The notes beneath the pieces were generated by a model that was not told the DNA's origin, ran no database searches, and saw nothing but the letters and a program-made list of their open reading frames with translations. Source: a virus. Taken from it: a stretch of 47,538 nucleotides of DNA. This document shows positions 10,604 through 30,218 of the stretch, piece after piece (the first letter of the stretch is position 1; every line of letters starts with the position of its first letter). Made by a program: the position numbers and the translations under genes. Location: positions 1 to 47,538 of the IMG/VR virus record IMGVR_UViG_3300050030_000036; one strand, written 5' to 3'.

Positions 10604-11133
10604 TGGCCGATGTGTTCGACCGCATCCACGCTCTCGTGTCTCCTCCGCCCGGCGGCGGAGACGTGTTCGACCGCATCCACGCTCTCGTGTCTCCTCCGCC
10701 CGTGGCTTATTCGAGGATCACCCACTCGCCGATCTCGGTTGAGGATCAACCGGGGCTGAAGGGCACGTATAAAGGCGGCGCAATCACCATCTCCCCCGAG
10801 CAGTGGGGCATCGTGCCCCACGAATCGGCGCATCAGATTTACGACAAGGCCGGCCTGGCCGCCCAGGCCCCACAGTTGGCCCCACAGGTGAGCGAGGCTA
10901 ACCGAAACCTGATCGCGGCGACACCAGTGTATCGGCAGGGGCCCAACGCCGGAACGCCCGACCAAGTGGCGAATGAGGGCCTCGGATTCTCGATCGGACA
11001 GCCGACCGAAACGGACTACGTGGAAAAGGTGGCGTCGGCAATTAAGGACCCGGTGCTAGCGACGAGGCTACGGCGCCTGAACAGCAACGCCCTCGGCGCG
11101 CGCAACGCCAAGCTTTGGGGAATCGATCAGTAG
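10603..11133 (+). CDS. putative zinc metallopeptidase-like virion protein (HExxH)
   Basis: The 176-residue protein contains HESAH (residues 73-77), a perfect HExxH zinc-binding motif. It is followed by ANEGLG with Glu125, which could be the third ligand of a gluzincin-type site. The N-terminus holds two copies of DVFDRIHALVSPPP, 17 residues apart, from a recent 51-bp duplication. The short HExxH domain lies last in the internal-protein cluster. It may trim virion proteins or the cell envelope, and it is the only candidate hydrolase near the lysis or entry genes. The ligand assignment is by eye. Confidence 0.55.
   Translation: MADVFDRIHALVSPPPGGGDVFDRIHALVSPPPVAYSRITHSPISVEDQPGLKGTYKGGAITISPEQWGIVPHESAHQIYDKAGLAAQAPQLAPQVSEANRNLIAATPVYRQGPNAGTPDQVANEGLGFSIGQPTETDYVEKVASAIKDPVLATRLRRLNSNALGARNAKLWGIDQ
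10612..10702 (+). repeat. 40-bp direct repeat, period 51 bp
   Basis: GTGTTCGACCGCATCCACGC and the following 20 bases occur at 10612-10651 and identically at 10663-10702. The duplication is in frame and lacks silent changes, so it is recent. It doubles the N-terminal motif of the HExxH protein. Confidence 0.9.
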
Positions 11134-11179
11134 CCTCAACCTCAAAGAGCAGCAACGGATTTTGAAAGGGAAATAACAG

Positions 11180-11398
11180 ATGGACACCCCCACCGCAGTC
11201 AACCTCAGCGTCTCCGATCCCATCTCCGCCGATATCCAGGCGGTGTGCAAGGCAGCGGAATCCCTGTGTACGTTCCTGTGTACCCCGGAAGGTCAGTTGG
11301 CCTGCAAGGCGTGGCGTGATAGCAGTACGGCATGGAATGCGGCGCTCGGGAAAGGTGCCCAGTGGTTTAAGAACCTGTTCGGAGGAAAACTGACATGA
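11180..11398 (+). CDS. small Cys-containing protein, unknown
   Basis: The 72-residue protein is preceded by AAAGGGAAATAACAG. It carries four Cys (residues 23-42, in CKAAESLC, FLC and ACK) and an aromatic C-terminal tail (GAQWFKNLFGGKL). No signal peptide or clear membrane segment is present. It is coupled to the next gene by ATGA. It may belong to the end of the late operon, in a place where lysis genes are often found, but nothing in it shows a lysis role. Confidence 0.6.
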   Translation: MDTPTAVNLSVSDPISADIQAVCKAAESLCTFLCTPEGQLACKAWRDSSTAWNAALGKGAQWFKNLFGGKLT

Positions 11399-11559
11399 GC
11401 ATAACATCGGGACCAATCAACGAAGGCGAGCAGGCCACGGAGAAGGCGGCGGATCACATCGCAGACCACACGGAGCCGGCCATCATCCGCATCATCGACG
11501 CGGTTTTCCAACGGCTCTGGAAGACGCGCATCATTATCGACATCACGGAGCGGCAGTAG
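11395..11559 (+). CDS. small protein, unknown
   Basis: The 54-residue protein starts at ATG overlapping the previous stop (ATGA). It has an acidic N-terminal half (NEGEQATEKAADHIADHTE) and an amphipathic C-terminal helix (PAIIRIIDAVFQRLWKTRIII) that could lie on a membrane. It is near the end of the forward late block. The function is unknown. Confidence 0.55.
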   Translation: MSITSGPINEGEQATEKAADHIADHTEPAIIRIIDAVFQRLWKTRIIIDITERQ

Positions 11560-11582
11560 CGTTGAATTGGCTGGAGGCATGA

Positions 11583-11738
11583 GTGATCTGGCTGTTCGAG
11601 GACGAGGACGAAGGGGAAACGCCTGATGTTCTGAAGTTCGGACTGCGGAAGGTTGACCCGCGCGCTTCTCACACACGCGGGCCGTTAGTGGGGGATCGCT
11701 CTACTTCGCGGCCGGCTTGCGGCCCGGTTTCTTTTTGA
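11583..11738 (+). CDS. possible small protein at the end of the late block
   Basis: A 51-residue frame starts at GTG after GGAGGCATGA, a strong ribosome-binding site. The N-terminus is acidic (MIWLFEDEDEGETPDV). The last third overlaps, on the opposite strand, the end of the basic peptide gene at 11701. A shorter ATG frame at 11579 (15 codons) shares the same site, so the call is uncertain. Confidence 0.4.
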   Translation: MIWLFEDEDEGETPDVLKFGLRKVDPRASHTRGPLVGDRSTSRPACGPVSF

Positions 11739-11793
11739 GCGCGGCCTTGGGCTTGCTCTTCATCGGCGCTTTCGTTGTACTCGTTGCTCTCAT
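11701..11793 (-). CDS. 30-residue Lys/Ala/Pro-rich basic peptide
   Basis: Starts at ATG 11793 with AAGGAG nine bases upstream. The peptide is almost entirely Lys, Ala, Pro and Arg (KSKPKAALKKKPGRKPAAK), like histone H1 tails. Such peptides bind nucleic acid non-specifically. It is the last gene of the leftward operon. An overlapping ATG at 11800 would give an acidic peptide, but its spacing to the ribosome site is too short. Confidence 0.55.
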   Translation of the reverse strand: MRATSTTKAPMKSKPKAALKKKPGRKPAAK

Positions 11794-11840
11794 CGAACAT
11801 TTCTCCTTGAATTAACTGTACAGCCTAACCCTGGTGCGAG

Positions 11841-12158
11841 TCACGGATTATTGTGCTCGTCCGGGTTGTAGTTCTCGCAGAAAGTGCAAGGCGCACGGCC
11901 CAGGAAGCACATGCAACTCGTAGCGCGTTCCCGTGCGACCCGCTCCTCACCCTCCAACCACTCCCTACGTTTCGCCGCTTCGGCGGCATCCTTCTCGGCC
12001 TTTGTGGGCCTCGGCTTAATCAGCCCCAGCCGTTTGCGGATCTGATACCGCGCCGCACGTTTCGCTTTCCGCTGCTCGGCCTTTATCCTTCCCACCTCGG
12101 CCACTCTCTGCGAGATGGCCTCAGCGAAAGCCATGATGCCATCAAACGTGTCGAGCAT
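11841..12158 (-). CDS. Arg/Lys-rich helical protein with C-terminal Cys motif
   Basis: The 105-residue protein has a helical, strongly charged middle (residues 20-80, with KAEQRKAKRAARYQIRKRL). The tail CMCFLGRAPCTFCENY holds four Cys in a possible zinc knuckle. It lies in the leftward small-gene operon. It may bind nucleic acid. The family was not recognised. Confidence 0.65.
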   Translation of the reverse strand: MLDTFDGIMAFAEAISQRVAEVGRIKAEQRKAKRAARYQIRKRLGLIKPRPTKAEKDAAEAAKRREWLEGEERVARERATSCMCFLGRAPCTFCENYNPDEHNNP

Positions 12159-12166
12159 ACTTCCTC

Positions 12167-12352
12167 CTACGCCGTGTGTGCGTCACGATATTTTCGATAC
12201 ACTTCGAGCGCCCAGCGGTGATCTTTCAGGGCGCGCGCTTTCGCGGCGTGCGCCCGGCGCAGGATGTCGATGGCCTGGGACACGGTACGCTCGGTCTGGT
12301 CACACCGCTCCTGTAATTCGGCAAGCATCGCCTTCTCGTTGGGCGTCATCAT
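12167..12352 (-). CDS. small helical protein
   Basis: The 61-residue protein is predicted all helical (LQERCDQTERTVSQAIDILR). The tandem ATGATG start overlaps the stop of the upstream gene. It probably forms a coiled coil. It is a member of the leftward operon with no recognised family. Confidence 0.6.
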   Translation of the reverse strand: MMTPNEKAMLAELQERCDQTERTVSQAIDILRRAHAAKARALKDHRWALEVYRKYRDAHTA

Positions 12353-12726: not shown

Positions 12727-13059
12727 TCATGCGCTTCTCTCCATTTTCCCAAAGTACGTCTCATTGAATTCCCGGATCAACGCCGGGATATCGAGCCCGT
12801 GCAGTTCAGCAAACCCGCGCGGGTCCGCATCGAACTGATCGTGCTCGCGCCGAGTCAACGGGATCGCCGACAAATCGCTGCTCTTCTGCCCTACCGCATG
12901 CGGCCCCGTGTGCGCGGGGTCGCAACCACCAAAGCCCGAGACCACCGACGCCTGCCGGCGGATGAAGCGCAGGTACTTCGGATCGCGCACGGGCCGCGAA
13001 CCGCAGTACATGCGCTCGGAACGGACTGCCATAGGCTGAATCACCGTGTTACCGGGCAT
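12727..13059 (-). CDS. HNH-like (DUF968-like) putative nuclease with altered metal site
   Basis: The 110-residue protein has a core (residues 49-100) reading GGCDPAHTGPHAVGQKSSDL, then PLTRREHDQFD and FAELHGLDIPALI. This follows the phage DUF968/HNH pattern in which a Cys pair precedes (D/A)xAHH.., and xxH after PL.. completes the site. Here the usual first Cys-x-x-Cys is replaced by SVVSGFGGC, so only one Cys remains and zinc binding may be weakened. Phage members of this group are thought to act on recombination or packaging DNA. The frame from GTTATG has several in-frame starts. Confidence 0.55.
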   Translation of the reverse strand: MPGNTVIQPMAVRSERMYCGSRPVRDPKYLRFIRRQASVVSGFGGCDPAHTGPHAVGQKSSDLSAIPLTRREHDQFDADPRGFAELHGLDIPALIREFNETYFGKMERSA

Positions 13060-13620: not shown

Positions 13621-13916
13621 AAAGCCACCCACGTTACAGGATAACCGCACCCCTCTTCGGCTTCCATAACGCCGGAATCGCAACCCCACGAACGCGCCTC
13701 CGTGGGAGACATGGGGCGGAATCTGGATTGGACCACATCCTCCACAGTCAATGCCGCGCGGGCGTCATCTGGCACATCGGAACCTGTCATCCCCCTGACG
13801 CGCTGCAGAAACTCCTCGGGATCAATGTGCCCGTTATCGTAGATGCAGGTTTTGTTGTCACCCCCTGCATAGAATCCCCAGTCGATTTCCCTAAGACCTC
13901 TCGTTTTACGCGGCAT
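13617..13916 (-). CDS. hypothetical protein
   Basis: The 99-residue protein starts at ATG 13916. It opens with a basic stretch (MPRKTRGLRE) and contains a Gly/Tyr/Trp-rich segment (DWGFYAGGDNKTCIYDNG). Its start region overlaps the end of the upstream gene by 11 bases. It is part of the leftward operon and the family is unknown. Confidence 0.6.
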   Translation of the reverse strand: MPRKTRGLREIDWGFYAGGDNKTCIYDNGHIDPEEFLQRVRGMTGSDVPDDARAALTVEDVVQSRFRPMSPTEARSWGCDSGVMEAEEGCGYPVTWVAL

Positions 13917-14568
13917 GGGCCACTCCGTTTTTCGTCATGGCAATGTAGCAGGTCGTGAGGAGCGCGCGGACGTCCTCCGGCTTCACGCGGTTGCCGTGCT
14001 GGTTCGCGTGCTCTAAGCACGCGGCGTAAGCGTCGATTAGGGCGTCCGTATTCGCCATCAGATGAATAGAGAAGGGCGTGGCGCCGGACGGCGGATGCGC
14101 CGCTGCCGGCCGAGAATCGGGCACGGCCACCGGACCGGACTCCGGCGGCTTGCGCTCCGCCACCGCGGCGCGGCGCTCCTGGATCTGGCGGAGCTGGGCG
14201 TCTACCTGCAATTCGAGTTGCGATGGCGGCTGGCTGGCCAGTATAGGTCGATCAGCCGCCCCCGATACCACGCGGCGCGCTTCCTTCGCCGCGCGGAACT
14301 TTTCGGTCTCCAGGGATAGGCCCACGTCCCAGCGGGCCTTTTGTCCCTTCTGACCATTCGAATGCTTACAGATTGTGATGCTCTCGCCGGCCTGCGGTTC
14401 CAGCATGTTGATCTGCTGGGCCACGGTGAGGTCCAGGAACATCACCTGGTCGCCGTCGAGGCCCCACATCACGCGTTGACCGAAACGCCCATCACAAAGT
14501 TTGCCTTCGGCGTACTGGAGGGTGACGGTCACCGGGGTGTTGGGCTGGAATGTGATTGTGTCGCGCAT
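13906..14568 (-). CDS. possible OB-fold-like DNA-binding protein
   Basis: The 220-residue protein starts at ATG 14568, two bases past the upstream stop; a longer frame adds 15 out-of-context residues. Residues 8-75 (VTVTLQYAEGKLCDGRFGQR, then VMFLDLTVAQQINML and GESITICK) have the strand and loop rhythm of a small beta barrel. They resemble an Acidobacteriota-phage family that I suspect binds single-stranded DNA. A Pro/Ala linker (110-160) leads to a helical C-terminus (residues 165-220). The single-strand binding role is a guess. Confidence 0.5.
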   Translation of the reverse strand: MRDTITFQPNTPVTVTLQYAEGKLCDGRFGQRVMWGLDGDQVMFLDLTVAQQINMLEPQAGESITICKHSNGQKGQKARWDVGLSLETEKFRAAKEARRVVSGAADRPILASQPPSQLELQVDAQLRQIQERRAAVAERKPPESGPVAVPDSRPAAAHPPSGATPFSIHLMANTDALIDAYAACLEHANQHGNRVKPEDVRALLTTCYIAMTKNGVAHAA

Positions 14569-14569
14569 C

Positions 14570-14749
14570 TTACGCCACCTTCCCGAGCAGATCGCCGCGC
14601 CGGGCTTGCTCATCGCGGATCATGTGAAACTCCGAGAGCTGCGCCAGCGGGTAGCCGTACTTGCCGTAGCGCAGCCGGAGCGCGGTCAGGCGATCGGCCA
14701 GTTCCGCGTCGGTGCTTGCCTGGATTTGTTCGTGCTGGATATCGCGCAT
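14570..14749 (-). CDS. small helical protein
   Basis: The 59-residue protein starts at ATG 14749, which overlaps the previous stop. Its pattern LADRLTALRLRYGKYGYPLA suggests helix-turn-helix packing, and it is Tyr-rich. It has no Cys. It is coupled on both sides in the leftward operon. Confidence 0.6.
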   Translation of the reverse strand: MRDIQHEQIQASTDAELADRLTALRLRYGKYGYPLAQLSEFHMIRDEQARRGDLLGKVA

Positions 14750-15185: not shown

Positions 15186-15401
15186 CACGCCACCAGCCTT
15201 TCACAGCACACCGGGGCATGCCGGTAGAGTTCGTCTCCCCCGAAACGGTCCTGATCGTGGAGGAGCCGGGGAAGGATGATATCGCACCCAGTGATGTAAG
15301 AGCCACACTGCAAACAGTACGGATGCCATGTCAGGCCAGCATCATCACTTCGCTGAATCCATAGATTCCGCATCACGCCACCAGCCTTTCGCAGCACACC
15401 G
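15183..15401 (-). repeat. 31-bp repeated gene junction
   Basis: CATCACGCCACCAGCCTTTC followed by (A/G)CAGCACACCG occurs at 15183-15213 and 15371-15401 with one mismatch. A shorter form (CATCACGCCACC) is at 14923. On the reverse strand it encodes the CCERLVA tail plus stop, contains the ribosome site GAAAGG and ends at the ATG of the next gene. It acts as a portable stop/start junction. Confidence 0.8.
15185..15373 (-). CDS. small Cys-containing protein
   Basis: The 62-residue protein starts at ATG 15373. It has CLQCGSYITGCD and a C-terminal VCCERLVA identical to that of the upstream gene. The identical tails come from a repeated gene junction, not from homology of the whole proteins. The function is unknown. 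Confidence 0.6.
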   Translation of the reverse strand: MRNLWIQRSDDAGLTWHPYCLQCGSYITGCDIILPRLLHDQDRFGGDELYRHAPVCCERLVA

Positions 15402-15663
15402 CGTCGGCCGTGACCATCAGCCGATCGCTGACCACGGTCTTTTTGGTGCAGCCGCAGTGCACGCACTCGGCTTCATGCGACCGCAAGAGGACGCGCATGG
15501 TGGCGATGGTGTCGGATGCGACGATCAGGGCATCCCGCACGGAGCATCTGGGGCCGAAGACCGCCAGCTCCTCGGCGTCCTGCGCCACCAGCATGCTCTC
15601 GGTGACTTCATTCTCCAATTGCTCGGTCTCTTCGAAGGTCGTTCGTTCTTGGAAGCGGTCCAT
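15373..15663 (-). CDS. first gene of the leftward operon, hypothetical
   Basis: The 96-residue protein starts at ATG 15663 (ribosome site AAAGGA). The acidic helical N-terminus (ERTTFEETEQLENEVTES) is followed by helices and a CVHCGCTKKTVV knuckle (CxxCxC) and the tail ADAVCCERLVA. It is the proximal gene of the promoter at 15747. The Cys arrangement suggests zinc. The function is unknown. Confidence 0.6.
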   Translation of the reverse strand: MDRFQERTTFEETEQLENEVTESMLVAQDAEELAVFGPRCSVRDALIVASDTIATMRVLLRSHEAECVHCGCTKKTVVSDRLMVTADAVCCERLVA

Positions 15664-15673
15664 ACTCTCTATC

Positions 15674-15700
15674 CTTTCCCGCGGAAAGCCCCCGCGGGGG
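15674..15700 (-). promoter_or_regulatory. leader hairpins covering the ribosome site
   Basis: In the reverse-strand leader, CTTTCC-gcg-GGAAAG (15674-15688) is a perfect 6-bp stem whose right arm overlaps the AAAGGA ribosome site of the first gene. It is adjacent to the perfect palindrome CCCCCGCGGGGG (15689-15700). The pairing could hold translation of the operon low. Confidence 0.45.
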
Positions 15701-15746
15701 GTAGGGCCGGTAGGTGCGTCTCGTACACCCATCCAACCCTAAATAC

Positions 15747-15776
15747 AGTATACAGGAACTACGCTGTTACTGTCAA
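15747..15776 (-). promoter_or_regulatory. sigma70-type promoter for the leftward operon
   Basis: On the reverse strand TTGACA (15771-15776) is followed by an 18-base spacer and TATACT (15747-15752), a near-consensus vegetative promoter. It lies 84 bases upstream of the first gene's ATG at 15663. The inverted repeat ACAGTA/TACTGT and the 12-bp site at 15757 fall within it. Confidence 0.75.
15757..15768. promoter_or_regulatory. putative operator, AACAGCG(TA)GTT
   Basis: AACAGCGTAGTT (reverse strand) sits in the spacer of the strong leftward promoter. It differs from the perfect palindrome AACAGCGCTGTT at 16029 only at the two central bases CT/TA. A bound repressor would block the promoter. Confidence 0.5.
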
Positions 15777-15807
15777 TAGGAAAAGAGAATAAATTGGTGG
15801 TTTTTTT

Positions 15808-15984
15808 TTAGGCTTGGTGCTGGCGGCGACAGATGGGCTTGTGCGCCCGAACGTCGGTCGCTGAGAAGTTCTGCTTACAGTAGGGGCAGCGGTGCATGAC
15901 GGGCTTGCGGCCACCGCGCCGATTCTTGCGCAACGAGGACAGGAGCGCTGCCGCCGCCGATCCTTCTGTGCCCTTGCATTTCAC
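15808..15984 (-). CDS. small zinc-finger protein, leaderless
   Basis: The 58-residue protein starts at GTG 15984. The core MHRCPYCKQNFSATDVRAHK with C in PIC forms a C2HC knuckle (CxxC...HxxxxC) flanked by basic residues (SLRKNRRGGRK). The family of CPYC...RAHK..C fingers is common in small Acidobacteriota and phage proteins. GTG lies 7 bases after a TAGAAT -10 element, with no ribosome site, so translation is probably leaderless. A regulatory role in the switch region is plausible but unproven. Confidence 0.6.
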   Translation of the reverse strand: MKCKGTEGSAAAALLSSLRKNRRGGRKPVMHRCPYCKQNFSATDVRAHKPICRRQHQA

Positions 15985-15991
15985 ATTTCTG

Positions 15992-16020
15992 ATTCTACGC
16001 TATTTATGTTATGCTGGCAA
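15992..16020 (-). promoter_or_regulatory. sigma70-type promoter, reverse
   Basis: TTGCCA (16015-16020 reverse), a 17-base spacer, then TAGAAT (15992-15997). It starts the small zinc-finger gene at 15984 without a leader. The -10 with its downstream CA (TAGAATCA) recurs at 23896 and 25360. Confidence 0.65.
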
Positions 16021-16028
16021 TGAGAATA

Positions 16029-16040
16029 AACAGCGCTGTT
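16029..16040. promoter_or_regulatory. palindromic operator AACAGCGCTGTT
   Basis: A perfect 12-bp palindrome nine bases upstream of the reverse promoter's -35 and about 70 bases before the forward operon start. A near copy is at 15757. It is a good candidate for a dimeric repressor site controlling both directions. Confidence 0.55.
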
Positions 16041-16107
16041 ACAGACTGTGGCGGAAAAGCTACGCGCAGAGTTGGTGCACGCCACGTCAGTGGCAGGAGG
16101 TGTAACG

Positions 16108-16635
16108 ATGAAAACGGTTGTCGAGCAATTATCAGTAGGCCAGATCCAGGCGGAATCGGAAGACCTGGCCCGTAATGCAATCGCCCTGTATCCAGACCTT
16201 CCGGCGGCAAACCTGGTGGGGAGGTGCATTGAGATGGCAGAGGCAGGGATGCTCTCGGACCTTGACCGCCTTTTAGAAACGAAGCATTTCTTGCGAGCCA
16301 TCGGAATTGTCCGGCGGCAGGACAAACCGAAGCCGGCGTCCTTATTCCAGTACGCGCCATTTCAAAAAGCAGCGTCCATCATTCCTCGAAGGCTTAAGCT
16401 GAAAAGCGGAGAGATCGTCACCCAGGACAAGTACAGCTTCGAGCACCTGGATCGCATCATCGCGCTGAGAACCGCCGCGCTTCGCAAGAAGAGCCACCAG
16501 AAGAAAGAGAACGATCCGGTGATTCTTGCCACGAAAGAGATTATGGCCGCGTGGCCAACGCGCACGAAGAAGTTGCAGGGGCTCACACTCGCTGAAGTTG
16601 ACGCCCTTCTGTTTCCTGCGGGGCTGAATCAATAA
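16108..16635 (+). CDS. hypothetical protein, first gene of the recombinase operon
   Basis: The 175-residue protein starts at ATG 16108 after AGGAGGTGTAACG, an excellent ribosome site; a longer frame begins at 16048. It is largely helical (GQIQAESEDLARNAIALY, ALYPDLPAANLVGRCIEMA) with a basic middle (IPRRLKLKSGEIV). No motif was recognised. It precedes a coupled gene at 16635. A DNA-binding or regulatory role would fit the location behind operators but is not shown. Confidence 0.65.
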   Translation: MKTVVEQLSVGQIQAESEDLARNAIALYPDLPAANLVGRCIEMAEAGMLSDLDRLLETKHFLRAIGIVRRQDKPKPASLFQYAPFQKAASIIPRRLKLKSGEIVTQDKYSFEHLDRIIALRTAALRKKSHQKKENDPVILATKEIMAAWPTRTKKLQGLTLAEVDALLFPAGLNQ

Positions 16636-16967: not shown

Positions 16968-17206
16968 AACGGATTCACGTCATAGGCATGGTGCTCGGTT
17001 GCTTCGTATTGCCGTTCGCGGTTGCGTGGGTGCTGTCTACCTGGATCGTTAGGAACGTGATGTTCTTCTTCGTGATCATGGCGCTGGGTGCCTGGGCTGT
17101 TGATGGTCTGCGACAACTGTGGTTTAGGTTCCATCCAAGAGAGGATGAGCGAGTTGTGGTGATGACGCCGAGCGGAAGGGCGTATTTGGTGGCAAAGAAG
17201 AAGTGA
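16964..17206 (+). CDS. small membrane protein, two transmembrane segments
   Basis: The 80-residue protein has two hydrophobic helices at about residues 6-26 (VIGMVLGCFVLPFAVAWVL) and 31-48 (VMFFFVIMALGAWAVDGL). A basic soluble tail follows (VVMTPSGRAYLVAKKK). It is coupled to both neighbours. It could be a superinfection or lysis-related protein, but nothing specific is visible. Confidence 0.65.
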   Translation: MKRIHVIGMVLGCFVLPFAVAWVLSTWIVRNVMFFFVIMALGAWAVDGLRQLWFRFHPREDERVVVMTPSGRAYLVAKKK

Positions 17207-17871
17207 TGCGTTGCGCCATCTACGCCCGCGTGAGCACCGTCGATCAGGATTGCTCGATGCAGTTGGACGAACTGCGTCGGTACGTCAAGGCGCGCGGCTG
17301 GCCCAAGGGCGAGGAGTACGTGGATACCGGCTTCAGTGGCACAAAGGCTTCACGGCCGGAGTTGGACCGCCTGATGCGGGACGCACGGGTCCGGCGGGTG
17401 GATTGCATCGTGGTGTGGAAGTTGGATCGCTGGGGGCGCTCGCTGGGGAATTTGATCGGCAGCCTGGCGGAGTTAGGCGGCCTGGGAGTGCGTTGGATCG
17501 CCACGACCCAAAACATCGACACAGACGAGAGCAACCCAACAGGGCGGCTGCTCCTGCATATCATGGGCGCGGTCGCTGAGTTCGAGCGCGAGATGATGCG
17601 CGAGCGCACCTTGGCCGGGTTGGCCCACGCCAGGTCGCAGGGGCGCGTGGGCGGCCGGCCGGCCAGGGTATTTGATCGCTACCACGCGAAGGATTTGCGC
17701 GATCAGGGGATGAGTTGGCGCGGGATTGAGAAGGAATTGGGCATCGCGCAAAGCTCGATCCGTAAGGCGCTCGCGCACCTGCCGGTCAAACCCGTGCGCG
17801 GTAAAACGCACACGAAGGGCGGTGATCCAACCCCTTCCCCCGCGCGTCGGCCCGCGCGATCGCGCGCTTGA
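17206..17871 (+). CDS. serine recombinase (resolvase/invertase family)
   Basis: The 221-residue protein starts at ATG 17206, whose A is the last base of the upstream TGA. The N-terminal catalytic domain has the nucleophile motif YARVSTVDQ (Ser at about residue 10), the DTGFSGTKASRPELDRLM segment, and VVWKLDRWGRS with the conserved Arg pair. EFEREMMRERT is the long E-helix of the family. The C-terminus has a helix-turn-helix (MSWRGIEKELGIAQSSIRKA) and a basic tail. Small members of this family resolve or invert DNA; large ones integrate. It is the only recombinase in the window, so it could manage integration, dimer resolution or an invertible segment. Confidence 0.9.
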   Translation: MRCAIYARVSTVDQDCSMQLDELRRYVKARGWPKGEEYVDTGFSGTKASRPELDRLMRDARVRRVDCIVVWKLDRWGRSLGNLIGSLAELGGLGVRWIATTQNIDTDESNPTGRLLLHIMGAVAEFEREMMRERTLAGLAHARSQGRVGGRPARVFDRYHAKDLRDQGMSWRGIEKELGIAQSSIRKALAHLPVKPVRGKTHTKGGDPTPSPARRPARSRA

Positions 17872-20591: not shown

Positions 20592-20960
20592 TTATTGCAG
20601 AATCACCGTCGCCAGGACTTGCTTTGCGTCCCTTCGGCGCCGTTTCGCGTCTGTATATGCCGTACGGCACAGAGGGCACCGGCACCCGTGGTAAATGTAA
20701 CCGACCTCCTTGCCGTGATAGTGCACGGGGATGGGATGGGCCAAGCGCCGAAGGCGCAAATACGCCCGCCGATATGTTACGCATGGATCGCACCGGCAAC
20801 CCACCTTGTAAGCGTATAGTGCCCCGTGGGTAAGAGCACTACGCTTCCTGTTTCGGGGAGGGGGAGGGTTGTCCTCGGCGCGGATCATACGTGTCAAGGC
20901 GCGCATTCGGCCATTCCCTACAGGCTCAACTATCGGCAACATCGACACTGGCATAGTCAC
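20592..20960 (-). CDS. small duplicated zinc-finger-like protein
   Basis: The 122-residue protein starts at GTG 20960 (GTGA with the upstream stop) or ATG 20954. Two similar cores are seen: THGALYAYKVGCRCDPCVTY (about 44-63) and YHGCRCPLCRTAYTDAKRR (about 90-108). Each holds H-G..GCRC..C followed by a basic helix. The HG..GYxxGCRCxxC pattern is common in small phage and actinobacterial proteins and probably binds zinc. Confidence 0.65.
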   Translation of the reverse strand: MTMPVSMLPIVEPVGNGRMRALTRMIRAEDNPPPPRNRKRSALTHGALYAYKVGCRCDPCVTYRRAYLRLRRLAHPIPVHYHGKEVGYIYHGCRCPLCRTAYTDAKRRRRDAKQVLATVILQ

Positions 20961-21829
20961 TTCGCGGTCCAGATCGTCACTCCATCCGGTAGCACCATAG
21001 AAATCCCGATGAGGGGCAGGAGAGAGCCATCAGGCAGCCGTATGGTGGCGCGGAGCAATCCTGCGCAGTCCCAGCCGGGGCCGGACCCCACGCACTGCTC
21101 AATACCAACCAGGGAGGGCAGTGGTGGTGAAGCGTTGCGTACGTCCCCAACCACTTTCCAATCGCTGCCGGCGAAGCACCAGAACAGATGGCCGGTATCC
21201 GTGGCCAGGAAGAACGTCAGACCGGACGCGGGGCACAAGGGCGGGGCGGATTCCAGCCCAGTGAGGTAGGGAGCATACGTAGGCGGGACAGGCGGGACCG
21301 TGTCATCGTCAATCTGAATGCCCGAGATCACCGCATTCCCCTGTGAAGCCGTCAGAACGATCAGGAGCAGCGGTCCGGTGATTACCACCGGAAACGACTC
21401 CGAATAAGGTGTCAGCGCGCCCGGGGCAACCGCGAACAGGTCCAAAGACGACAGATCCAGGGACGCGATGTGCAATGCACCATTGACCGCTACCGAAAAC
21501 ACGCGCTGTCCGATGGCCGTCTTGTTTGGCTCCAGAAATTTCAGGGTCACCGTGTAGATGCCGGGGCTCATTGGAATCGTGTAGGAGACCGGCGAGCCAG
21601 CCGGATAGGCCGAATACCTCAGCGTTTTGTACGGCACCGGCAGAGTGGCCATGGTTGCCTGATTCGTCGTATCCCACCGCGCGCCGCCGGTGAAGTAGGC
21701 GTCTGGTTTCCAGACGTTGCCCTGCGCGTCCTTTCCGCCTGGCCCTCCGCACTGGATCCGCACCAGGGTTGCGGCGTGGGCGGAGAGGGCCAGGAGAAGT
21801 GGGAGTAGCAGCAGGCGGTTATCGCGCAT
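20957..21829 (-). CDS. secreted malectin-domain protein
   Basis: The 290-residue protein starts at ATG 21829 after GGGAGGGGGACGG. A Sec signal peptide (residues 1-20, RLLLLPLLLALSAHA) is followed by a malectin-like carbohydrate-binding domain (residues 21-165). Its marks are IQCGGPGGKDAQGNVW, YTIPMSPGIYTVTLKFLEP, GQRVFSVAVNG and NAVISGIQIDDD. The last 120 residues are Pro/Cys-containing and unrecognised. Malectin domains bind di- and oligosaccharides. A phage product sent out of the host cell would suggest surface modification or lysogenic conversion. Confidence 0.75.
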   Translation of the reverse strand: MRDNRLLLLPLLLALSAHAATLVRIQCGGPGGKDAQGNVWKPDAYFTGGARWDTTNQATMATLPVPYKTLRYSAYPAGSPVSYTIPMSPGIYTVTLKFLEPNKTAIGQRVFSVAVNGALHIASLDLSSLDLFAVAPGALTPYSESFPVVITGPLLLIVLTASQGNAVISGIQIDDDTVPPVPPTYAPYLTGLESAPPLCPASGLTFFLATDTGHLFWCFAGSDWKVVGDVRNASPPLPSLVGIEQCVGSGPGWDCAGLLRATIRLPDGSLLPLIGISMVLPDGVTIWTAK

Positions 21830-22037
21830 CCGTCCCCCTCCCGTGCTCATCCGATGCCATCCCGCGCGCCTTGCGGCCCGTGCTGATCTTCCGAACGACC
21901 CCTTTAGTTCCGGTGGGCATGGGCGCTCCCGTGGTGTGGTAACGGATGCCGCGCTGGCACTCTGCGCCCCATCGGCTGACATCGACGCCGCCCGGCCCCC
22001 AGTAGTTGTGATCGAACCATTCATCCTCTGTTCTCAA
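21819..22037 (-). CDS. hypothetical basic protein
   Basis: The 72-residue protein is chosen to start at TTG 22037, with GGAGGAGGG seven bases upstream and TTGA overlap with the preceding stop; GTG 22058 is the alternative. It has an acidic/aromatic start (TEDEWFDHNYWGPG) and a basic end. It overlaps the malectin gene start by 11 bases. The function is unknown. Confidence 0.55.
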   Translation of the reverse strand: MRTEDEWFDHNYWGPGGVDVSRWGAECQRGIRYHTTGAPMPTGTKGVVRKISTGRKARGMASDEHGRGTDAR

Positions 22038-23895: not shown

Positions 23896-23944
23896 ATTCT
23901 AAAAGACTTGCGCACGCCTAAGTAGCACGCCAGCACTACTTAGG
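23896..23944 (-). promoter_or_regulatory. promoter with overlapping inverted-repeat operator
   Basis: On the reverse strand TAGAAT (23896-23901) is a good -10 without a clear -35. Instead the perfect inverted repeat CCTAAGTAG-N10-CTACTTAGG (arms 23917-23925 and 23936-23944) lies where the -35 should be. It includes GTAGTG on one arm. This suggests a promoter controlled by a dimeric protein. Confidence 0.55.
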
Positions 23945-25399: not shown

Positions 25400-25586
25400 G
25401 TAGTGCGTCAAGCACTACGTCTTGTAGTGATCCAAGCCACCCAATATGTAGTGACTGAAGGCGAGCGTATTGAAAGGACTTAGAAAGGAAGAGGGAAAGG
25501 CTCGGCCGCGCTCTTCTTCTGAAGTCTTTTCTTCTGTCGTCGTCGTCGTCTTTTCTTCCGTGAATGTAGTGAGATCCCACTACATT
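25400..25586. promoter_or_regulatory. GTAGTG operator cluster
   Basis: Four sites: an inverted repeat GTAGTGC-gtcaa-GCACTAC (25400-25418), single TGTAGTGA sites at 25423-25430 and 25447-25454, and an inverted repeat AATGTAGTG-N6-CACTACATT (25563-25586). They lie between the divergent starts at 25350 and 25593. A related half-site is in the 23917 repeat. They are likely sites for one phage regulator. Confidence 0.6.
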
Positions 25587-26378: not shown

Positions 26379-26756
26379 TCAGGCCGCAATCGGAAGCGGG
26401 ATCCGCTGCCCCACTTCAGTGCAGTGTACGCACCGGCAACCTCCCACATGCTCCCCCGCCTGGCTTGTGCGAAGCCGGGCCCAAGTACACCATGGCGATT
26501 CGCATCGGCAACCGGTGACATGGAGCCCGATTTCGCAGTACACCCCCGCTTCCAGGCAGTTGGGATGCTGCATTGCCCACTTCGGAATCTGCAATCGACT
26601 GGTCAGCCCCAGCTTTTGGGTCAAAAGGACGACGCGGCCGTTGACCCCTCCCGTTGATAATTCAAGCGGCCCGGCGATCTCTTTCACAGCCTGGCCGTTC
26701 AAAAGTCCGGCGACAATGTCTCGTTCGCGCGGGGCTAACTTAACCCGTTTGTTCAG
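26379..26756 (-). CDS. LuxR/GerE-type transcription regulator with CTG start
   Basis: The 125-residue frame carries a LuxR-type helix-turn-helix in residues 5-65: LAPRERDIVAGLLNGQAVKE, then IAGPLELSTGGVNGRVVLL and TQKLGLTSRLQIPKWA. The pattern PRERxIv.lL..G...kEIA..L..S...V..hv..l..KLG is that of the family. A Cys-rich tail (GCRCESPWC, GCRCVHC) follows and may bind metal. No ATG, GTG or TTG fits; the best start is CTG 26756 with GGAGG six bases upstream. It lies opposite the early operon, with ACTACA/TGTAGT repeats in its own control region. Confidence 0.6.
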   Translation of the reverse strand: MNKRVKLAPRERDIVAGLLNGQAVKEIAGPLELSTGGVNGRVVLLTQKLGLTSRLQIPKWAMQHPNCLEAGVYCEIGLHVTGCRCESPWCTWARLRTSQAGEHVGGCRCVHCTEVGQRIPLPIAA

Positions 26757-26862: not shown

Positions 26863-27312
26863 ATGGCAGGCCCAGTGTTGGTTCCGAAATCGCCAAGCCG
26901 CAAGCAAATCGTGGATGAATACGGCGAGGTCGACCGCAAACTCCGCCTCTGGCAACCCCAACAGAACCCTCACCAGGCGCGCCACGCCGAACTCGAAGCC
27001 ATCATATTGAGCTGGGCCGCCGATGAGCCGGCCTATCAGTCCAAAGTGGTCTCCGGGTTGGCCTATCAGGTTGAGGTCTCCGCCCGCGGAATGCGGAGCA
27101 CTTTCACCCCGGCAGCGCAGGCCAAGGCATACGAGCTTCTAAAGCACGCCAAGGTACCGCTCATGCAGTTTTTCAGCCTCACTTTGGCCGAGGCGAAGGC
27201 CCACTTGGGACCCGAATTTGTGCTGACCAACATCCCCAAACTCCAAACCGGTCCCCGCTCCGTGAACGTAGTCCCGCGCGTTGAAGCCGCCGCGACAAAG
27301 AAGGTGGCTTAG
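26863..27312 (+). CDS. hypothetical protein
   Basis: The 149-residue protein starts at ATG 26863 in ATCATATGG. Its first half is helical (KQIVDEYGEVDRKLRLWQPQ). The middle has VSGLAYQVEVSARGMRSTFT and a PAAQAKAYELLKHAKVPLMQ helix. The end (VVPRVEAAATKKVA) is like a DNA-binding tail. No family was recognised. It starts the middle operon that leads through small genes to the terminase. Confidence 0.6.
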   Translation: MAGPVLVPKSPSRKQIVDEYGEVDRKLRLWQPQQNPHQARHAELEAIILSWAADEPAYQSKVVSGLAYQVEVSARGMRSTFTPAAQAKAYELLKHAKVPLMQFFSLTLAEAKAHLGPEFVLTNIPKLQTGPRSVNVVPRVEAAATKKVA

Positions 27313-28716: not shown

Positions 28717-29174
28717 ACCGCTCCCCCATCTTTTTGGCCGCCTACCGCGAAACCGGCTCCGTCACCCGGGCGGCGGAAGCGGCGGGCATCCACCGGAGCA
28801 TCCACTACCGGAGATTGCAGGAAGATCCCGCCTACAAGGCGGCCTTCGAGCGGGCCCACGAAGTGGCGATCGCGGTCCTCGAAGACGAAGCGATCCGGCG
28901 GGCGGTGGAGGGCGTAGAAGAGCCCCTGACGTATCAAGGCCAGTTTCAATACGCAGACCTGGATGACGACGGGAACCCCGCTGGAAAGCCGCTGGCCATC
29001 CGCAAATACTCCGACAGCCTGCTCCAGTTCCTGCTCAGGGGAGCCAAACCGGAGAAGTACCGCGAACGGTTCTCGCATGACGTGAACGCCAAGGTGACTC
29101 ATAAGTTTGATGGCACGCTTGAAGATCTGCTCACCACATATCGCGCTCTCACGGCGGACGATTCGAAAGCGTGA
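28713..29174 (+). CDS. terminase small subunit
   Basis: The 153-residue protein starts at ATG 28713 overlapping the previous stop. The N-terminal helix-turn-helix (FLAAYRETGSVTRAAEAAGI, HRSIHYRRLQEDPAYKAAF) is followed by helices (ERAHEVAIAVLEDEAIRRAV) and IRKYSDSLLQFLLRGAKPEK with the C-terminal YRERF. This is the small-subunit pattern of many phages, which binds the packaging site. Its last 65 bases overlap the FliA-like sigma gene. Confidence 0.8.
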   Translation: MNRSPIFLAAYRETGSVTRAAEAAGIHRSIHYRRLQEDPAYKAAFERAHEVAIAVLEDEAIRRAVEGVEEPLTYQGQFQYADLDDDGNPAGKPLAIRKYSDSLLQFLLRGAKPEKYRERFSHDVNAKVTHKFDGTLEDLLTTYRALTADDSKA

Positions 29175-29718
29175 CGGCCTGGTCCTGGAGCACCTGGAAT
29201 GGGCTCACGGGATCGCGCGTCGCGTCGCCTCACTGCTGCCGACGTGGTTCACCTTCGAAGACCTTTGCGGCCCCGTGGAACTCGCCTTGTTTGAGCGGGC
29301 GGCATCATTTGATCCCAAGCGTGGCATCCCCTTCAAAGCTTATGCCTCGCGGCGCATCCACGGTGCCTGTTTCGATTCGGTACGGCGCAAGGAGTACCGG
29401 GAGCGGGGACACTTGTCGCTGTCAACCCATCGGCTCGGTTTGCTTCGAGATGACGGTGGCAACCGGGAGATGGACGGGGTGGACGCCCAGGCGTGCGACC
29501 CAAATCCTTCCCCCGAAGCGCAGGCGGCTTCTCACGAACAAGTCCACGTCTGGGCGCAGGTGCAGCAGCTCCCCCCGCGCCACGCCCTGGTAATCCTGGC
29601 GGTCTACGGCGGCGGCATGACGCTTGAGACTTTGGCCACCAAGGTGGACGTGGGATCGAGCAGGCTCTCCCAGATCCATCATGAGGCGCTGAGGATGCTC
29701 AAAGGGATGGCCGCGTGA
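29110..29718 (+). CDS. FliA/WhiG-type sigma factor
   Basis: The 202-residue protein is taken to start at ATG 29110, so the overlap with the terminase gene is long; TTG 29107 is an alternative. Region 2 (residues 24-95) carries HLEWAHGIARRVASLLP, FTFEDLCGPVELALFERA and FDPKRGIPFKAYASRRIHGA. The F-D-P-x-R-G..F..YA..RIrGA..D..R signature marks flagellar/WhiG-type sigma factors. Region 4 (residues 150-200, LPPRHALVILAVYGGGMTLE, LSQIHHEALRMLKGM) has the C-terminal helix-turn-helix. It is the likely reader of the TAAG-N11/12-GGCGATA sites. Confidence 0.85.
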   Translation: MARLKICSPHIALSRRTIRKRDGLVLEHLEWAHGIARRVASLLPTWFTFEDLCGPVELALFERAASFDPKRGIPFKAYASRRIHGACFDSVRRKEYRERGHLSLSTHRLGLLRDDGGNREMDGVDAQACDPNPSPEAQAASHEQVHVWAQVQQLPPRHALVILAVYGGGMTLETLATKVDVGSSRLSQIHHEALRMLKGMAA

Positions 29719-30218
29719 TCCTGACCGGCGAGGCCGAATTGCTGGCGAAGGTCCGCTACTCGCTCCTGGCCAGGGGGGTGAGATATGACGACGTGGACGA
29801 TTGCGCGCAGGACGTGATACTGGCCCTTTTGACAACGCGAGTGGATGTCAAGGACCAAGGGGCCTACGCTATCGGGATCGCGCGCCATGCCGCCTTGGAA
29901 TGGATGGCGGGCTCGATCCGGGAACGGCTGCGGGACGATTTGGCGCTGATCGAAAACGTGACGCCCTCGCGCGAGCCGGACGCCTTAGCCCAGTTGGAGC
30001 GCCGCGAGAAACTGGGACTCGCGGGCGCGGTGCTCCGGGGGCTGCCAACGGAGCAACGCGACATCCTGACGCGTTTCTATTTGCAGGGACAGAAGGAACC
30101 AGAGATACGCCAGGCGATGAGCCTCACCCCGACGCAATTCCGCCTGGGCAAGCACCGCGCCAAGGCAACTTTGAGCGCCCGCGTGCAACGCGCACTGGCC
30201 GCCAAGGTGGCGGCATGA
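29715..30218 (+). CDS. ECF-like sigma-70 family factor
   Basis: The 167-residue protein starts at GTG 29715 (GTGA). Region 2 (residues 5-75): AELLAKVRYSLLARGVRYDD, VDDCAQDVILALL and YAIGIARHAALEWM. The DDxxQDV..AL core is typical of ECF sigma factors. Region 4 (residues 108-158): LPTEQRDILTRFYLQGQKEP, EIRQAMSLTPTQFRLGKHRA. The start and stop overlap both neighbours, which guarantees co-translation. It may read a second set of promoters that I could not define. Confidence 0.8.
   Translation: MILTGEAELLAKVRYSLLARGVRYDDVDDCAQDVILALLTTRVDVKDQGAYAIGIARHAALEWMAGSIRERLRDDLALIENVTPSREPDALAQLERREKLGLAGAVLRGLPTEQRDILTRFYLQGQKEPEIRQAMSLTPTQFRLGKHRAKATLSARVQRALAAKVAA

Follow-up and report, generated by a model that had tools for sequence, protein, structure and literature searches.

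In phage lambda, the divergent early promoters of the OR and OL regions are overlaid by a series of related operators, and the repressor is translated from a leaderless mRNA. A similar organization has been described for phage PY54, where an operator lies between divergent phage repressor genes and leaderless mRNAs are produced from strong promoters at the start codons; operator specificity varies among related phages of this group (PMC4488713, partial text). The region that we analyzed is like immB of PY54 (and of N15 and phiKO2), with divergent genes of which one is a candidate regulator, operator-like sites and predicted promoters right at start codons, and it shares with the lambda and PY54 systems divergent promoters that bear repeated operator-like sites, the rightward promoter being weak. 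It differs from these known systems in its proteins. PY54 uses CI/Cro-type repressors (PMC4488713, partial text), whereas among the proteins flanking the operators we found no CI/Cro helix-turn-helix repressor gene and no helix-turn-helix family of any kind, and the candidate regulator is a very small C2HC zinc-finger protein of 58 aa. Unlike in PY54, the operators are on both flanks of the candidate gene, and relative to lambda OR/OL the operator unit is only ~12 bp with one clear copy per side. Word searches of one literature library identified no paper uniting zinc finger, phage repressor, lysogeny and operator, and no full match for leaderless immunity repressors or prokaryotic zinc fingers.

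The window, by which we mean the whole 47,538-base virus record (GC content 61.7%), looks like a complete contig of a soil phage from an uncultured family. Its ends share a 46-nt near-perfect repeat, and it is therefore probably a circularly assembled phage genome. The encoded terminase resembles that of many Vibrio phages and of coliphages including Stx phages, and the window also encodes a major head protein, two sigma-like proteins and a small serine recombinase. A tandem pair of sigma-factor-like genes (29107-29718 and 29715-30218) was noted directly before the large terminase, 42-nt tandem repeats occur within a structural-region gene (633-1078), and a 7-kb minus-strand block between the recombinase and the late operon, which contains a malectin-domain protein (20957-22024), is missing from most relatives. 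Named phages were distant, since the portal protein gave two weak matches with 28% identity over a quarter of its length, and the control region had no DNA similarity to named phages. The portal scan recovered 17 viral contigs at 68-76% identity, and an alignment scan gave 80 loci, part of them duplicates of loci fetched earlier. The genome collections contained just two matches, both Acidobacteriota MAGs, and when 396 genomes drawn from the phylum were scored for further prophages of the family, the only one detected was in G026 itself, one of the genomes discussed below. Acidobacteriota are abundant in soil, but little is known about the viruses of this phylum; phage isolates exist in the Tunturi viruses (PMC11924767, partial text).

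The region lies between a leftward operon of small genes, extending from 15663 to about 11841 and including an HNH-like DUF968 protein, and a rightward operon in which three genes without assignment precede the recombinase (Table 1). An earlier note on this DNA had placed a recombinase operon at 16108; the operon does start there, with the recombinase only as its fourth gene. The same note had proposed two reverse sigma70-type promoters, and both are present: P1 and P2 are the sole sites with at least 10/12 matches in the entire 47.5-kb window, and P1 is the best of them. The note had missed PR, which overlaps P2 face to face. The P1 leader can be folded into two hairpins, the second of which directly precedes the Shine-Dalgarno sequence of the leftward operon, and Rfam and tRNA searches gave no matches. 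The exact sequence TAGAATCA was found only three times in the window (15990, 23894 and 25358), always on the minus strand and just upstream of a gene start. Between P1 and P2 is the zinc-finger ORF, encoding a CxxC...H...C finger and a basic RRGGRKP stretch, and from the distance between the -10 and the start codon its mRNA is predicted to be leaderless. Leaderless starts with GTG are unusual. Leaderless genes have been predicted in Acidobacteria (PMC3160421, partial text).

Table 1. Positions of features in the control region, its flanking operons and the second locus (window coordinates).
Feature	Position	Strand	Remarks
Leftward operon, first gene	15373-15663	-	Similar start in L036
GC hairpin, 8 bp, in predicted P1 leader	15678-15698	-	Just before Shine-Dalgarno; z -2.6
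P1, strong sigma70-type promoter of leftward operon	15776-15747	-	TTGACA-18-TATACT, 11/12
O1, near copy AACTACGCTGTT	15757-15768		In P1 spacer
Duplicated promoter block, copy 1	15759-15793		Local alignment
C2HC zinc-finger gene, 58 aa	15984-15809	-	GTG start ~7 nt after P2 -10
PR, weak rightward promoter-like site	15980-16010	+	TTCACA-19-TATGTT, 9/12; long 19-bp spacer
P2, promoter of zinc-finger gene	16020-15992	-	TTGCCA-17-TAGAAT, 10/12
O2, weak third operator-like copy TTCTACGCTATT	15993-16004		Within 36-nt duplication
Duplicated promoter block, copy 2	15995-16030		Local alignment
O3, perfect palindrome AACAGCGCTGTT	16029-16040		Upstream of P2, downstream of PR
Rightward operon, first gene	16108-16635	+	Strong Shine-Dalgarno; protein modelled as all-helical
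Small serine recombinase (resolvase/invertase type)	17203-17871	+	Fourth gene of rightward operon
KGG-type small gene	25346-25176	-	TTGCGC-17-TAGAAT promoter-like site 9 nt before ATG
LuxR/GerE-type HTH ORF	26379-26756	-	Clear GerE match; CTG after GGAGG or uncertain start

We then considered the repeats. The 12-bp palindrome O3 and its near copy O1, both described earlier, are real, and allowing up to 2 mismatches they are the only matches to AACAGCGCTGTT in the window. O1 forms part of an imperfect dyad of 22 bp (15752-15773) with 8 of 11 pairs matching. A repeat search identified a third related 15-mer at 15995-16009, overlooked before, where O2 overlaps the -10 of P2 and sits in the PR spacer; the copies start at 15759, 15995 and 16031, giving spacings of 236 and 36 bp. 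Also overlooked was a 36-nt duplication that bears O1, O2 and the tract GAGAATAAA and was equalled in only 2 of 2000 shuffles. Perfect palindromes of at least 12 bp are not rare (20 in the window), and taken by itself the near copy has no significance window-wide, where a mean of 1.82 near matches to AACAGCGCTGTT is expected by chance. A perfect palindrome together with a copy at up to 2 mismatches within the same 444 bp was obtained in 3 of 1000 dinucleotide shuffles, with thresholds that were set after the data were seen. The P1 dyad was borderline, its score being reached by 7 of 100 shuffles, or by 1 of 100 when the copy was included in the score, and a stricter dyad-plus-copy script detected no scoring spacer dyad with a copy at P1.

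The zinc-finger gene and the 16108 product had both been named as possible repressors. We rejected the latter, which gave no sign of DNA binding: no DNA-binding domain was recognized and a fold search of its all-helical model found nothing. IMG/VR patterns and phage tblastn returned no homologues of it; one partial match lies elsewhere in relative L046, and there is a distant likeness to the junction proteins of L039, L045 and L048 (weak, E 0.017). Named collections likewise held no homologues of the first leftward gene or of 13906-14613. The zinc-finger protein is favored as the binder because operator copies flank its gene, just as those of relative L041 flank a KGG-type gene, and a homologue and a modelled finger point the same way. 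In Pfam and PHROGs its zinc-finger matches were only sub-threshold (14.0 bits for PF13913 against a curated cut-off of 27). AlphaFold2, run on a two-row alignment, gave a helix and a beta-beta-alpha finger with pLDDT of ~92 over the finger, and Foldseek matched the finger model weakly to zinc fingers (best E 0.58). Archaeal virus protein B-129 (PDB 2wbt) is also a small viral zinc finger, but the sequence match (E 1.4) is weak and not significant, and it belongs to a different virus world. The only homologue found, and again the only one in IMG/VR, is in L094, a phage of the broader group, and is distant (40% identical). Its GTG start is 6 nt after a -10-like hexamer in TTGACA-17-GACCCT, of which the -10 is weak, and a 25-bp dyad covers the -35. 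After TTGACA, L094 has AGTACAGCGC and window P1 has GTAACAGCGT, with ACAGCG in common nearly in register; this likeness is short and could be due to chance. We regard the 58-aa protein only tentatively as the regulator of the control region, and a lone finger may bind RNA or protein.

The model that we infer from this layout is a divergent operator-controlled switch with the zinc-finger protein as local repressor, to which we give a probability of roughly 0.45. P1 would drive the leftward operon, P2 would drive the zinc-finger protein from its predicted leaderless GTG mRNA, and the weaker promoter facing P2 would drive the rightward operon, the last gene of which encodes the recombinase. The zinc-finger protein would bind AACAGCGCTGTT-type sites on both flanks of its own gene, blocking P1 from O1, and shutting the rightward promoter and tuning its own P2 from O2/O3. 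As the rightward promoter overlaps P2 in the opposing direction, only one of them could fire at a time, which would give two stable states. What the sequence shows is the promoters, the repeats, the order of the genes and the recurrence of this layout in relatives; leaderless transcription, the identity of the binder, repression and bistability are parts of the model.

We next asked how the junction is organized in related phages. The recombinase was present in 10 of 17 portal-fetched records and in 14 of the 24 searched in all, four of which had been retrieved with the recombinase as query, and it was present in 11 of 35 further records. A leftward-operon gene (homologue of 13906-14613 or 12727-13059) was divergent from the recombinase in 8 of 13 recombinase-holding loci, namely L036, L039, L041, L042, L045, L047, L048 and L050. 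The junction set consisted of 22 regions, the window and 21 loci (11 from the first set and 10 from the second) taken solely from loci with a recombinase match; L043 and L044 were left out since their upstream sequence was short or not a junction. In these regions, sigma70-like promoters (at least 8/12) whose -10 is followed at 4-9 nt by an ATG or GTG occurred 37 times, compared to 11.3 in single-base shuffles. Two such promoters in divergent orientation and no more than 260 bp apart were found in 9 of 22 regions and in 0-2 (mean 0.27) across 15 dinucleotide-shuffled sets, 8 of 21 being the fairer count as L124 and L125 are near-identical. The pair counted in the window is P2 with the weak rightward site, P1 excluded. 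Of the two promoters of a pair, the leftward one reads into the leftward operon and the rightward one into the gene for a small protein, which is a rubredoxin-like zinc finger in L040, L042, L124/L125 and L130, KGG-type in L047 and cysteine-containing in L050; in L041 the called rightward partner is the gene following its KGG-type gene. The window's zinc-finger gene is on the leftward strand, unlike the small-protein genes of the relatives, and the window junction plan is thus similar but not identical to theirs.

Operator-like sites were also observed in some of these relatives, and their sequences differ from phage to phage. The clearest case is L041, in which three 16-bp palindrome copies, ATCCGTGCGCACGGAT, ATCTGTACGCACGGAT and ATCCGTGCGTACGGAT, flank a small basic KGG-type gene, the same plan as around the window's zinc-finger gene. 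ATCCGTGCGCACGGAT and ATCCGTGCGTACGGAT are in called promoter spacers (TTGCTA-17-TAGAAT and TAGAGA-17-TATAAT), while ATCTGTACGCACGGAT occupies the spacer of a weak third promoter and directly precedes its weaker -10 (GATATT). Dyads over the leftward promoter outscored shuffles in L041 (0/100), L036 (1/100), L045 (1/100) and L047 (4/300), were borderline in L050 (6/100), scored 9/100 in L130 and 15/100 in L040, and were absent from the rubredoxin-like zinc-finger loci L042 (62/100) and L125 (66/100). In the stricter dyad-plus-copy test the L041 score was reached in none of 300 shuffles; L047, whose dyad is gapped, was missed. Scanning 25 loci for a dyad plus copy gave 6 loci at the 12-bp setting against 1.1 expected, the only setting above chance, and 4 loci at each of the 16- and 15-mer settings, where 2.8 and 2.6 were expected. 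The operator logic, as read from sequence, is strong in some relatives, moderate in the window and not universal.

These data bear on a simpler explanation, that the region is a plain host sigma70 early promoter pair without a dedicated repressor and that the repeats are remnants of promoter duplication. The P1 and P2 blocks are indeed duplicated, 12-bp palindromes are common in the genome, the P1 dyad is modest and several relatives have no dyad. However, the perfect palindrome O3 falls outside the duplicated core, the three near-identical palindromes of L041 at three promoters are beyond chance, and a small-protein gene recurs at the junction. We consider this explanation unlikely.

A second alternative is that the operators serve the LuxR/GerE-type or the KGG-type protein and that the zinc-finger gene is merely co-regulated. 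The GerE-type ORF of the window is divergent from the late operon at 26863, and many relatives conserve it beside this operon. KGG-type genes adjoin paired palindromes in L041, L047 and prophage L121, and the window has such a gene at 25.2 kb. In L121, the integrated relative, a tyrosine recombinase, the KGG-type gene and the GerE gene are found at 10723-12340 beside a ribosomal-S1-like host frame, and two near-identical 15-bp palindromes (11955 and 11984) lie upstream of the KGG-type gene. Against this, the KGG/GerE locus of the window has its own GTAGTG-type palindromes, different from AACAGCGCTGTT, and, allowing 2 mismatches, no AACAGCGCTGTT-like site. GTAG/CTAC ends are common to its inverted repeats (23917-23944, 25400-25418 and 25563-25586), which have them in two cases in the form GTAGTG...CACTAC and sit upstream of the 22213-23883 gene and around the KGG-type gene. 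We consider control of the operators by these proteins decidedly unlikely. The palindrome-rich 23.9-26.8 kb segment is a second switch-like locus, which competes for the lysis-lysogeny role.

The sites at which resolvases act are often close to the promoter of the resolvase gene, and a Tn3-type res site has three subsites within ~120 bp beside the resolvase gene. It is very improbable that the repeats are res-like subsites at which the recombinase encoded by the fourth operon gene resolves or inverts DNA, with the promoter overlap incidental, since the three copies are spread over ~290 bp and do not have the compact three-subsite layout, and the L041 sites fall in promoter spacers. Small serine recombinases also occur in the plasmid prophages phiCD38-2, D6 and pBC52 (PMC8026635, partial text), which the window resembles in its resolvase/invertase-type enzyme and phage size. 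Unlike in plasmid prophages, no partition gene, and no plasmid replication gene, was recognized among the window proteins scanned (a subset of the ORFs, with many proteins lacking assignment), and one relative is chromosomally integrated with a tyrosine recombinase.

In this relative, G026:C86, host-like frames (fabF-like and ribosomal-S1-like) are followed by a tyrosine recombinase and a small KGG-type gene, and next by a LuxR/GerE-type gene ahead of the phage genes; the host-to-phage order indicates that it is an integrated prophage. Its portal protein is 70% identical to that of the window, and it is a separate phage. With a prophage among the members of the family, a switch for lysogeny is plausible. 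The earlier note had assigned the region the shape of a lysogeny control region. The control function stands: with divergent operons, the two best promoters of the window, operator-like repeats on promoters and similar junctions in relatives, the region is very probably a real control region. The lysogeny label fares less well, as the control region yielded neither a CI-like repressor nor a recombinase of integrase size, and the integrase of the prophage adjoins KGG- and LuxR-type genes whose window counterparts are at 25.2-26.8 kb, away from it. That lysis or lysogeny is decided at this control region seems doubtful, and either control locus, or both, may take the decision.

The divergent switch with a zinc-finger repressor may also extend to the family, although we hold this wider proposal to be rather speculative. 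According to it, a family of Acidobacteriota phages would run its switch with an interchangeable protein of ~50-70 aa, either a single zinc finger or a KGG-type basic protein, and not with a helix-turn-helix repressor; the protein would be made from a leaderless mRNA and have its own operator in divergent-promoter spacers, and the cassette would be swapped like an immunity cassette. The corresponding sequence rule, a spacer dyad in a promoter with a start codon 4-9 nt away, might find such switches in unannotated phages. If true, a phage family of Acidobacteriota would have a switch that relies on very small proteins, zinc-finger or basic, and on promoters that bear operators and give leaderless mRNAs.
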